DNA of 32,286 bases, taken from assembly GCA_945869855.1 (NCBI GenBank), contig CAMBQC010000012.1, positions 1 through 32,286 on the forward strand, given 5' to 3'. This DNA comes from Prosthecobacter debontii. GTDB lineage: Bacteria; Verrucomicrobiota; Verrucomicrobiia; Verrucomicrobiales; Akkermansiaceae. Positions 10,949 to 14,714 of the stretch are shown piece by piece. The stretch's first letter is position 1. Every line of letters starts with the position of its first letter. The notes beneath the pieces were generated by a model. That model worked only from the letters and a program-made list of their open reading frames with translations. It had not been told where the DNA came from and made no database searches. Position numbers and translations under genes: made by a program.

Positions 10949-12367
10949 ATGAACCACCATCACCTCCACAACGTCCTCCAGAACGACTGGTCGCGCCGGA
11001 CGTTCCTGAAAAAATCCTTCGCCGGTCTCGGCGGGATCGCGCTCTCGCAGTTCGCGGGTGCATCCCTGCCACGCCTCCACGAGCAGGGCGGACTCCACTT
11101 TCCCGCGAAGGCGAAACGCGTGATCCACCTCTGCATGGCCGGCGGTCCCTCGCATTTGGAATCGTTCGATCCGAAGGCGGAGCTGAACAAGCTCAACGGC
11201 CAGCCTTTCCCGGAATCGTTTACCAAAGGCCAGCAGCTCGCCCAGCTCCAGGGTGCTAAGCTTGTCGCCCGCGGCTCCTTCACAGGCTTCAAGAAATACG
11301 GCCAAGCGGGCATCGAGATTTCCGACCTTTTCCCCTACACTGGTGCGATCGCGGACGAGATCTGCGTCGTCCGCTCCATGGTTACCGAGCAGATCAACCA
11401 CGACCCCGCCCACGCCTTCATGAACTCTGGCTCCATCCTCAAGGGTCGCCCCAGCATGGGTTCGTGGCTGCTCTACGGCCTCGGCGCGGATTCGCAGAAC
11501 CTGCCCGGATACGTAGTCATGGTGTCGAGGGGTGATTTCCCGGATCAGCCGATCTCCTCCCGGCAATGGTCGGCGGGCTTCCTGCCATCTCGTTTCCAAG
11601 GCGTTCAGTTCCAGTCAAAAGGCGATGCCGTCCACTACGTCGGCAGCCCGGAGGGTGTCTGCCAATCCGCGCAGCGGCAGGTCATCGAGGAAGTCCAGCG
11701 CCTCAATGGTATGCTTCGCGAGCACCACTACGATCCTGAAATCGAGACCCGCATCGCGCAGTATGAAATGGCCTTCCGCATGCAATCCTCTGTGCCGGAA
11801 CTCACCGACATGAAAGGCGAGCCGCAGCACATCCTCGACATGTACGGCGTGAAAGAAGCCGGCGACGGCTCCTTCGCCTCGAACTGCCTGCTCGCCCGCC
11901 GCATGCTGGAGCGCGGCGTCCGTTTCGTGCAGCTCTACCACCGCGGCTGGGATCACCACGGCAACATCGACAAACAAATGCCCTACACCGCGAAGCTCAC
12001 CGATCAAGCCTCCGCCGCCCTCGTGAAAGACCTGAAACAACGCGGGATGCTCGAGGACACGCTCGTGATCTGGGGCGGCGAGTTCGGCCGCACGCCCATG
12101 GGCCAGGGCACCGGCCGCGACCACCACATCAAGGCCTTTTCCATCTGGATGGCCGGCGCGGGCATCAAGCCAGGTCACGTCCACGGCGCCACCGACGAGC
12201 TGGGCTACGCTGCTGTTGAAGACGTCGTCCATGTCCGCGACCTTCACGCTACTCTGTTGGAACGGTTCGGCATCGACCATGCCCGTTTCACCAAGAAATT
12301 CCAGGGCCTCGACTACAAGCTCACCGGCGTCGAACCCGCGAAACCCATCAAGGCCATCCTCGCATGA
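10949..12367 (+). CDS. DUF1501 domain-containing protein, Tat signal
   Basis: 472 aa; WSRRTFLKKSFAGLGGIALSQFAG Tat motif; HLCMAGGPSHLESFDPK; WGGEFGRTPMGQGTGRDHH. Confidence 0.95.
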   Translation: MNHHHLHNVLQNDWSRRTFLKKSFAGLGGIALSQFAGASLPRLHEQGGLHFPAKAKRVIHLCMAGGPSHLESFDPKAELNKLNGQPFPESFTKGQQLAQLQGAKLVARGSFTGFKKYGQAGIEISDLFPYTGAIADEICVVRSMVTEQINHDPAHAFMNSGSILKGRPSMGSWLLYGLGADSQNLPGYVVMVSRGDFPDQPISSRQWSAGFLPSRFQGVQFQSKGDAVHYVGSPEGVCQSAQRQVIEEVQRLNGMLREHHYDPEIETRIAQYEMAFRMQSSVPELTDMKGEPQHILDMYGVKEAGDGSFASNCLLARRMLERGVRFVQLYHRGWDHHGNIDKQMPYTAKLTDQASAALVKDLKQRGMLEDTLVIWGGEFGRTPMGQGTGRDHHIKAFSIWMAGAGIKPGHVHGATDELGYAAVEDVVHVRDLHATLLERFGIDHARFTKKFQGLDYKLTGVEPAKPIKAILA

Positions 12368-12421
12368 GATCGTAGGTGGTCTTCGCCGAGCAGGTTCACA
12401 CGCCACTCAGTTAGGCTGGTC

Positions 12422-12645
12422 GCCAAAAGTCCGTGGGCGAAAAGGTGACAACAAAGTAAAGTGCGCCGCAGGCTCTGGACTGCTGTGATTTTTCATTCAC
12501 AGCTCTCAAGGGCGGCTTTGTTTTGCGGGACAACGGGTTGCTACCGAGTTACTTCGTTTTTCCATCTCGAATCCAAAAAACGGCGGATGAGAACCGCCGC
12601 AGTCAAAAGCCTCCGGCGGCATGGATCTGCGCACGGACTTTTGGC
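12422..12645. repeat. ~224-bp intergenic element with 14-bp terminal inverted repeats and nested stems
   Basis: GCCAAAAGTCCGTG (12422..12435) is the exact reverse complement of CACGGACTTTTGGC (12632..12645); 12464..12483 pairs with 12599..12618 at 17/20; hairpins at 12482..12503 and 12581..12599. Confidence 0.75.
12575..12599 (-). terminator. Rho-independent-like terminator for recG (minus strand)
   Basis: Minus strand reads CGGCGG-TTCTCAT-CCGCCG-TTTTTT, about 75 nt downstream of the recG stop. Confidence 0.75.
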
Positions 12646-12671
12646 AAATGGTCTAATTGAGAGGTGAGTGC

Positions 12672-14714
12672 TCAATGCGCTCCCTGCGTTGCGGCGTTTT
12701 CACTGATAAACGGGCGGAGGTTCGCGTAAGCTTTTGTTAGGTGGGGGTCTTCTAGGAATACCTTGTCAGCCAGAGCGCGCGCTTGGCGGATAAGTTCGAT
12801 GTCGGTGATGAAATCGGCGAAGCGTAGATCGGTGAGGCCGGATTGGGCTGTGCCGAGGATATCGCCTTGGCCGCGGAGGCGTAGATCGGCCTCGGCGATC
12901 TCGAAGCCGTCGGATGTCTTTTCGAGGACGCTGAGTTTCTCGATGGCTTCGGGGAGTTTCGAATCGGTGAGGAGGATGCAGTAGGATTTGTGCTCGCCGC
13001 GCCCGATGCGCCCACGGAGCTGATGGATCTGGGCGAGGCCGAAGCGCTCGGCGTGGTGCAGGATCATTAGGTTTGCGTTGGGGACATCGACACCGACCTC
13101 GATCACCGTGGTGGCGACGAGGGCTTTCGTTTTCCCGTTGCGGAAATCCTCCATGACCGTGTCCTTTGCCTCGGGGCGCAGTTTGCCGTGGATCAGGCCG
13201 ACGTTTTCCGCACCGAGGCGTTTTTGCCATTTCGGAAACGCCTCGGTGGCGGATTCGGCTTTCACGGCATCGCTTTCCTCGACGAGCGGATAGACGAGGT
13301 AGGCCTGGCGGCCTTCGGCGAGCTGGGCTTTCACGAAATCGGTAATGTCCTGCTGCTTCGGCTTGGTGCGGAGGGCGGTGATGATCTTGCCGCGGCCCGC
13401 CGGTTTTTCATCTAACAGCGAGACATCGAGGTCGCCGTAGATCGTCATGGTCAGCGAGCGCGGGATGGGCGTGGCAGTCATCACGAGTACATCGGGAAGC
13501 GTGCCCTGGCGGATCAGCGCGGCGCGCTGGACGACGCCGAACTTGTGCTGCTCGTCGATCACCACGAGGCCAAGGTCGGTGAACAGCGTTTCATCGTAGA
13601 GCAGGGCGTGGGTGCCGATGAAAATCGTCGACCCGTGGGATTCCATGATTTCCTCGCGGCGGTTCGCGGTGCGTAGGACGATGTTCACTCCGAGCGGCTC
13701 CAGCCATTTCCGGAAGGTGAGGAAATGCTGCTCGGCGAGGATCTGGGTGGGTGCCATCAGCGCGGCGTCGGCTCCGGAGTCGATGGCCAGTAGCATGGAG
13801 GCGAGGGCGACGAAGGTTTTTCCCGATCCGACATCGCCTTGCAGCAGGCGGTTCATGGGGCGCGGTTGGCGCATGTCGTTGATGATTTCTTTGATGGAGC
13901 GTTTCTGTGCGCCGGTGAGGTCGAAGGGGAGGCTTTCGTAAAAGGCTTTCAGCAGGGTGGTTTTTTTACCAAGCACACGGCCTAGGTGGGAGAGGTGGCG
14001 GGTGCGCTGCCAGACGACGTTGAGCTGTAGGGTGAAGAAGGATTCGAGCGCGAAGCGGCGGCGGGCGGCCTTGCCCGTCTCGGCGGAGGTGGGGAAATGG
14101 GTTTCGAAAAGGTCGGCGGTGCGGGTGGTTTCGGAGACGGGAAATGGAAAGGGGAGAGGGTTGTGTTCGGCATGGCGGATGCAATCCGCCGCCGCGTTGT
14201 GGATGATCTCGCGCAGGCGGCGCTGGTTGAGGCCGGAGATGTTTTTGTAGATGGGGACGATGCGGTTGAGGTGGATCGTTTTCTCACCGTCGTCGGAAAC
14301 GACCTCGATCTCCGGGTGGTCGATGATGAGGCGTCCGCCCTGCTCTTTCACTTTTCCGTAGGCGATGACTTCCTGCCCGGCGGCGATGACCTTGGACATG
14401 AAGGGCATGTTGAACCAGCGGCAGGTGATTTTCCCGGAGCCGAAGACCCCGCCGGAGCCATCCATGATCACGGCCTCGTAGAAACGCGTTTTCCCGAAGC
14501 CCTTGGTGCCCGCGTCGATCACGCCGCCGTGCAAGCAGACGGGTTTGCCGGTCGGCAGGGTGGGGAAGGCATCGAACTGGCGTCTGTCCTCGTAGCGTTT
14601 TGGGAAATGGGCGAGAAGGTCGGCGATTGTGGTGAACCCTACGGACTCCAACGCCTGTGATTCCTTGGTGGAAAGGGTCGCGAGCGAGGCGAGTAGGGTT
14701 TGGCCGGAAGTCAC
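12672..14714 (-). CDS. recG: ATP-dependent DNA helicase RecG
   Basis: 680 aa; RLLQGDVGSGKTFVALASMLLAID, MAPTQILAEQHF, VIDEQHKFGVVQR, VMTATPIPRSLTMTIYGDLDVS, HAERFGLAQIHQLRGRIGRG. Confidence 0.97.
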   Translation of the reverse strand: MTSGQTLLASLATLSTKESQALESVGFTTIADLLAHFPKRYEDRRQFDAFPTLPTGKPVCLHGGVIDAGTKGFGKTRFYEAVIMDGSGGVFGSGKITCRWFNMPFMSKVIAAGQEVIAYGKVKEQGGRLIIDHPEIEVVSDDGEKTIHLNRIVPIYKNISGLNQRRLREIIHNAAADCIRHAEHNPLPFPFPVSETTRTADLFETHFPTSAETGKAARRRFALESFFTLQLNVVWQRTRHLSHLGRVLGKKTTLLKAFYESLPFDLTGAQKRSIKEIINDMRQPRPMNRLLQGDVGSGKTFVALASMLLAIDSGADAALMAPTQILAEQHFLTFRKWLEPLGVNIVLRTANRREEIMESHGSTIFIGTHALLYDETLFTDLGLVVIDEQHKFGVVQRAALIRQGTLPDVLVMTATPIPRSLTMTIYGDLDVSLLDEKPAGRGKIITALRTKPKQQDITDFVKAQLAEGRQAYLVYPLVEESDAVKAESATEAFPKWQKRLGAENVGLIHGKLRPEAKDTVMEDFRNGKTKALVATTVIEVGVDVPNANLMILHHAERFGLAQIHQLRGRIGRGEHKSYCILLTDSKLPEAIEKLSVLEKTSDGFEIAEADLRLRGQGDILGTAQSGLTDLRFADFITDIELIRQARALADKVFLEDPHLTKAYANLRPFISENAATQGAH
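14169..14193 (-). repeat. Copy of the REP-like arm inside the recG coding sequence
   Basis: Minus strand GGCGGCGGATTGCATCCGCCATGCC matches plus-strand 16842..16866 GGCGGCGGATTGCATCTGCCATGCC at 24/25. Confidence 0.65.

Follow-up and report, generated by a model that had tools for sequence, protein, structure and literature searches.

What is the highly structured intergenic segment that lies between the converging genes for a DUF1501 protein (10949-12367, plus strand) and RecG (12672-14714, minus strand) in Prosthecobacter debontii? The segment falls within a 32,286-nucleotide stretch of DNA, referred to here as the window, and the original prediction, which drew it at 12422-12645, offered either a MITE-like or BIME-like dispersed repeat or a structured non-coding RNA. 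Inspection confirmed the pairing described there: perfectly complementary 14-bp arms (GCCAAAAGTCCGTG at 12422-12435 and CACGGACTTTTGGC at 12632-12645), a nested pairing of 12464-12483 with 12599-12618 at 17 of 20 positions, and two hairpins, GCTGTGA-N8-TCACAGC (12482-12503) and CGGCGG-N7-CCGCCG (12581-12599). Against a background of dinucleotide shuffles, the region 12400-12670 folded at -116.3 kcal/mol, compared with -85.7 ± 5.0 for the shuffles (z = -6.15, with 0 of 200 shuffles as good), and the opposite strand gave a z of -5.0.

A search of the host genome (G000; an assembly of 1.96 Mb in 136 contigs, 80% complete) returned seven copies at 79 to 96% identity, that of the window among them, with 79 to 93% for the six others, as well as several shorter repeats that match only the terminal ~27 bases. 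Among 73 species genomes of its Akkermansiaceae genus (Verrucomicrobiota), in a search whose copy numbers per genome are to be read as "at least", the element, termed the composite below, was found in seven (the host, G066, G094, G075, G080, G082, and G072), and a 77-bp remnant of it was kept in G005. The BLASTN-type copy count that had been proposed therefore did not return the single-copy sequence that would have spoken against a dispersed repeat: the element is multi-copy and has relatives in other species. Its copies adjoin unrelated genes. In many contigs of G094 we also observed a derivative of ~120 bp that has lost the left half of the composite and is possibly a separately amplified subfamily.

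When copies were aligned with their flanks, near-full ones proved to be ~240 bp long and to carry TA on both sides in 12 of 15 cases. They end at this TA, 8 bases outside the arms, and not at the arms themselves. The predicted extent thus holds for the arms but not for the boundaries, as an imperfect terminal repeat runs 8 bases beyond each arm. The outer features of the window copy are as follows.

12412-12413: left TA target dinucleotide (TA in 13 of 15 left ends; a single TA at the empty site of another copy)
12414-12653: whole composite, read as a MITE, 240 bp between two TA (boundaries common to near-full copies; left-flank homology to G005 stops at 12413)
12414-12438, plus strand: left terminal inverted repeat (judged against 14 other copies and IS630 ends)
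12629-12653, minus strand: right terminal inverted repeat, close to the inward-read consensus GACCGTTTGCCAAAAGTCCGTGCGC
12654-12655: right TA target dinucleotide (TA in 14 of 15 right ends)

No open reading frame longer than 68 amino acids lies within the 240 bp. The outer 8 bases of the left terminal repeat are decayed in the window copy, reading GGCTGGTC against GACCGTTT in the family. The word TGGTC, noted earlier in both flanks, is indeed present twice, but we rejected it as a target duplication, since both occurrences belong to the terminal repeats: on the right it forms the outer end of the repeat, and on the left it lies within the decayed one. The real target duplication is TA. This is seen to the base in one pair of loci: a filled site in G094 (contig C17) reads CATTCCGGGAT(TA ... 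TA)TGGCTCC, and the corresponding empty site in G080 (contig C34), 92% identical over 508 bp, carries a single TA in CATTCCGGGAATACGG (longer reading, CATTCCGGGAATACGGATCC). That pair is the only base-exact empty site. For the copy on host contig C10, G075 and G005 have an uninterrupted site that lacks the element, where the sequences have diverged near the junction, and the window locus is unusable for this comparison because DUF1501 and recG are not neighbors in those relatives whose loci were read.

The outer ends could be assigned to a parent. The 26-bp family end TAGACCGTTTGCCAAAAGTCCGTGCG, with C or T at base 6, exactly matches the ends of IS630 transposons in G014, G016, and G075. In G016 (locus L281) and G014, the N-terminal part of a transposase follows within ~70 to 100 bases of this end, and in G014 and G075 the opposite end is followed by the C-terminal part of a transposase on the opposite strand. 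Contig ends interrupt the element in all three genomes, as is to be expected for an insertion sequence with multiple copies, and no single complete parent with exact 26-bp ends was therefore read. A complete IS630 element with TA, similar ends, and a frame of 371 codons is present in Roseibacillus ishigakijimensis (L284); its transposase scores 197.9 bits against the IS630 equivalog NF033545 (cut-off, 100) and matches DDE_3 at 1.9e-29, and the N terminus of the L281 transposase is 72% identical to it. Another intact IS630 (L124) has the outer ~17 bases of the end in common with the MITE. A 569-bp internal deletion derivative of IS630 (L283, JAAURL010000023.1, 1066-1653) still carries its two ends, the TA, and part of a transposase, and is likely an intermediate between insertion sequence and MITE. 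In the host, no intact transposase bearing exactly the MITE ends was found in the 80% complete assembly; the IS630 genes there are interrupted or cut off by contig ends, and one measured host IS630 end departs from the MITE end after ~19 bases.

Because the copies are dispersed and flanked by TA, an empty site exists, and the 26-bp ends match those of transposase-bearing IS630 elements from the same bacterial family, we conclude that the element is very probably a non-autonomous MITE of the IS630/Tc1-mariner type that carries a nested REPIN-like core. The MITE-like candidate was thus borne out by the IS630 parent, the TA duplication, and the empty site; its BIME- or REP-like counterpart describes a 157-bp core and not the whole element.

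Several other cargos are framed by the same ends. A second MITE family of ~125 bp in the host, with the interior GTCCGTTCGTAAAAATTC..., shares its outer ends with the composite; further interiors between these ends occur in L086, L098, and L100, and in L086 (G072, contig C9, 1079-1520) the composite and a MITE with another interior lie end to end on one shared TA. The host members of the second family are as follows.

G000:C4:12633-12760, C48:13045, C85:6393-6516, and C20:117: second MITE family, ~125 bp (L009, L012, L021, L028)

Within the composite, the inner complementarity resolves into a unit with its own boundaries.

12463-12619: nested REPIN-like core of 157 bp, two inverted REP-like units with a variable middle (found by itself, identically bounded, in G032, G014, and G016)
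12463-12503, plus strand: left REP-like unit, GCGCCGCAGGCTCTGGACTGC and the hairpin at 12482-12503 (double-sided changes at column pair 24/37 in 15 of 45 cores)
12581-12619, minus strand: right REP-like unit, the hairpin at 12581-12599 and GCAGTCAAAAGCCTCCGGCGG (double-sided changes at column pair 122/142 in 11 of 45)

In G032, G014, and G016, matches are confined to window columns 12463-12619. These core-only copies have exact common outer boundaries, GCGCCGCAGGC ... GCCTCCGGCGG, and unrelated flanks; the 20-nt arms and the hairpins are conserved, and the middle can hardly be aligned. Terminal repeats could not be traced at the core-only copies of the three genomes, and G032 contained no match to the terminal repeat at up to 2 mismatches. 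In a comparison of 45 cores, changes on both sides affect 8 pairs, in 38 cells, compared with 4.2 and 15.2 in shuffles and at most 3 pairs in slid versions, although kinship among the cores can inflate such counts. The double-sided changes fall mainly in the two hairpins and speak for selection on these; we would place it in the core's own past, since many of the changes divide the composite from the core-only families.

The core has the architecture by which REPINs are recognized, namely, two inverted hairpin-forming REP units with a variable spacer. Its tag words, GGAG in the right unit and GCAG in the left, stand ~10 nt from the hairpin, whereas REPs have GTAG or GGAG directly at the palindrome. 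RAYT-like genes are present in these genomes, that of the host on contig C37 scoring 59.3 bits against NF047646, below the cut-off of 80. No core REP motif was found near RAYT-like or Y1 genes in 20 Y1_Tnp loci and the wider RAYT loci read, a subset of such loci, and for this reason we do not claim membership in REPINs proper. The host has a further REP-like repeat, GCTTTTGASTGCGGCGA...TCGCCGC, which is related to the right core unit and several times occurs in inverted pairs.

G000:C2:50387, C3:15278, C3:16000, C7:31231, and C63:3535: REP-like repeat GCTTTTGASTGCGGCGA...TCGCCGC (L018-L020, L026, L029)

These features suggest a course of events in which the ends would be bound in trans by an IS630 transposase, which would excise the element and insert it at TA, duplicating the dinucleotide. 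At some point the MITE would have acquired the 157-bp REPIN-like repeat, which is otherwise dispersed alone in related species, and the hybrid would afterwards have been dispersed as a single unit among at least seven species. We infer the capture step, as no coreless MITE sharing these linkers was found. A further proposal, that two transposition systems are involved, with IS630 moving the whole and an HUH (RAYT-like) enzyme having once moved the core and perhaps still recognizing it, is one we regard as rather unlikely; if it is true, a selfish repeat survived when its own enzyme was lost because it was carried within another.

Three other accounts of the element were weighed. If the core were a remnant of old composite copies that had lost their ends, and not a separate mobile element, truncated composites and decaying element ends would be expected, and both are seen. 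Against this origin, the core-only copies of three genomes keep the same boundaries at both ends and bear no trace of terminal repeats, G032 has no terminal-repeat match within 2 mismatches, and core-only and composite copies differ in their hairpin pairs, with a middle that hardly aligns. We therefore consider this origin improbable.

It is less probable still, to the point of being quite implausible, that the element is a structured RNA, non-coding or cis-regulatory, with selection acting on its multibranched fold and with dispersal as a secondary matter. The great stability of the fold (z = -6.15), the covariation of the core hairpins across species, and a terminator-like hairpin on the minus strand count in favor of such an RNA.

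12580-12600, minus strand: intrinsic-terminator-like site facing recG transcripts, a 7-pair stem followed by TTTTT (consensus scan)

The covariation check on composite copies nevertheless gave no excess over chance: 15 composites scored 0.071 against 0.068 for shuffles, with 148 of 500 shuffles as high. A selected RNA fold of the whole element was rejected. The element had no Rfam match up to an E value of 10, a consensus scan found no promoter-like site in it, its copies lie next to unrelated genes, and its outer stem is fully accounted for by transposon ends. The RNA candidate of the original prediction accordingly found no support, and the nested complementarity described there is mostly explained by transposon terminal repeats on the outside and inverted REP-like units on the inside. 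The terminator scan itself returned two overlapping matches against 0.5 expected, and the right core hairpin may, by its sequence, end recG transcription.

Scarcely credible is the notion that the whole element is a REPIN or BIME moved by a RAYT (Y1 tyrosine transposase), with the terminal repeats as an outer REP pair, since despite the RAYT-like gene of the host and the REPIN architecture of the core, the TA duplication and IS630-type ends are marks of a DDE transposase and not of an HUH enzyme, which contradicts the outer part, and no RAYT-like or Y1 locus examined had the core REP motif nearby.

With the element taken as an IS630-type MITE with a REPIN-like core, its present position still has to be accounted for. 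Homology of the left flank to G005 extends to 12413, exactly at the TA, after which G005 continues into an ornithine-cyclodeaminase-family gene, intact on contig C119 (PF02423, 4.7e-50).

12364-12413, plus strand: 5' relic (17 codons, then a stop) of an ornithine-cyclodeaminase-like gene that the element truncates (homology to the G005:C119 gene stops at the TA)

The remainder of this gene was not found in the host assembly. To the right of the element, relatives become homologous again only at 12661-12669, the 3' end of recG; at the corresponding loci of G075, G082, and G094 (L275, L279, and L280), recG faces a converging gene for a RAYT-like Y1 transposase. That gene is missing beside recG in the window, and a similar one is found on host contig C37. 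In G066 (contig C236, L274, 1-60), the left flank of the window leads into a scar of ~20 bases from the element, reading GGCTGGTCGCCAAAAGTC and then TAGCCG, which looks like the product of an internal deletion between AGTC words. The scar directly adjoins a HAD-family gene, whose host counterpart lies beside another MITE on contig C4. The gene cut at codon 17 and joined to recG, the breaks in homology, and the arrangement in G066 imply a derived order of DUF1501, element, and recG, one that would have come about by recombination or deletion across repeats or else reflects a chimeric contig. The window copy interrupts the ornithine-cyclodeaminase-like gene at codon 17 and would have come to lie between DUF1501 and recG later, by rearrangement or through contig chimerism. 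Either way, the identity of the element is unaffected.

Parts of this arrangement are known from other bacteria. The direct precedent for IS630-mobilized repeats with TA targets is RUP of Streptococcus pneumoniae (PMC2229807), a 107-bp element proposed to be mobilized by IS630-Spn1 (PMC2229807, PMC3049150). RUP is likewise a short non-coding repeat with a TA target and terminal repeats resembling those of an IS630-family element in the same host, but its contiguous ends measure 9 bp and a nested second repeat is unreported, compared with 26-bp ends and a REPIN-like core here. The Correia/NEMIS elements of Neisseria have terminal TA, ~24-bp terminal repeats, and strong stem-loop folding (PMC2229807), but differ in sequence and host and in the absence of a REP pair inside. 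The core itself resembles the REPINs of Pseudomonas and others (PMC3116915) in its inverted pair of conserved units, variable spacer, and hairpins with compensatory changes; it departs from them in having no adjacent RAYT found, in its GGAG and GCAG words ~10 nt off the hairpin, and in being carried in an IS630-type MITE. Comparable in its nesting is Anabaena variabilis, where GTAG-15 REP dimers are inserted in long TATA-ended palindromes, so that REP dimers lie within another palindromic repeat, and where, as far as the available part of that account goes, the outer palindrome has no assigned transposon parent (PMC3733652); here the parent is identified and both layers also occur apart. Among the papers searched, none joined REPIN, MITE, and IS630 in Verrucomicrobia, the returns being a paper on a Pseudomonas syringae MITE and unrelated work. 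As kinds, IS630-type MITEs and REPIN-like repeats are known, and what is unusual is their nested combination with an identified outer parent.

The element thus offers a traceable capture of one small repeat inside another, with the layers both apart and together in one genus, and allows two questions to be approached by comparing many genomes: how MITEs come by their cargo, and how REP-like repeats last when no enzyme is linked to them. The predicted fold, though very strong, is here explained without RNA function, which calls for caution when intergenic regions are ranked by structure. In the host genome, repeats of this kind break genes and mark points of rearrangement.
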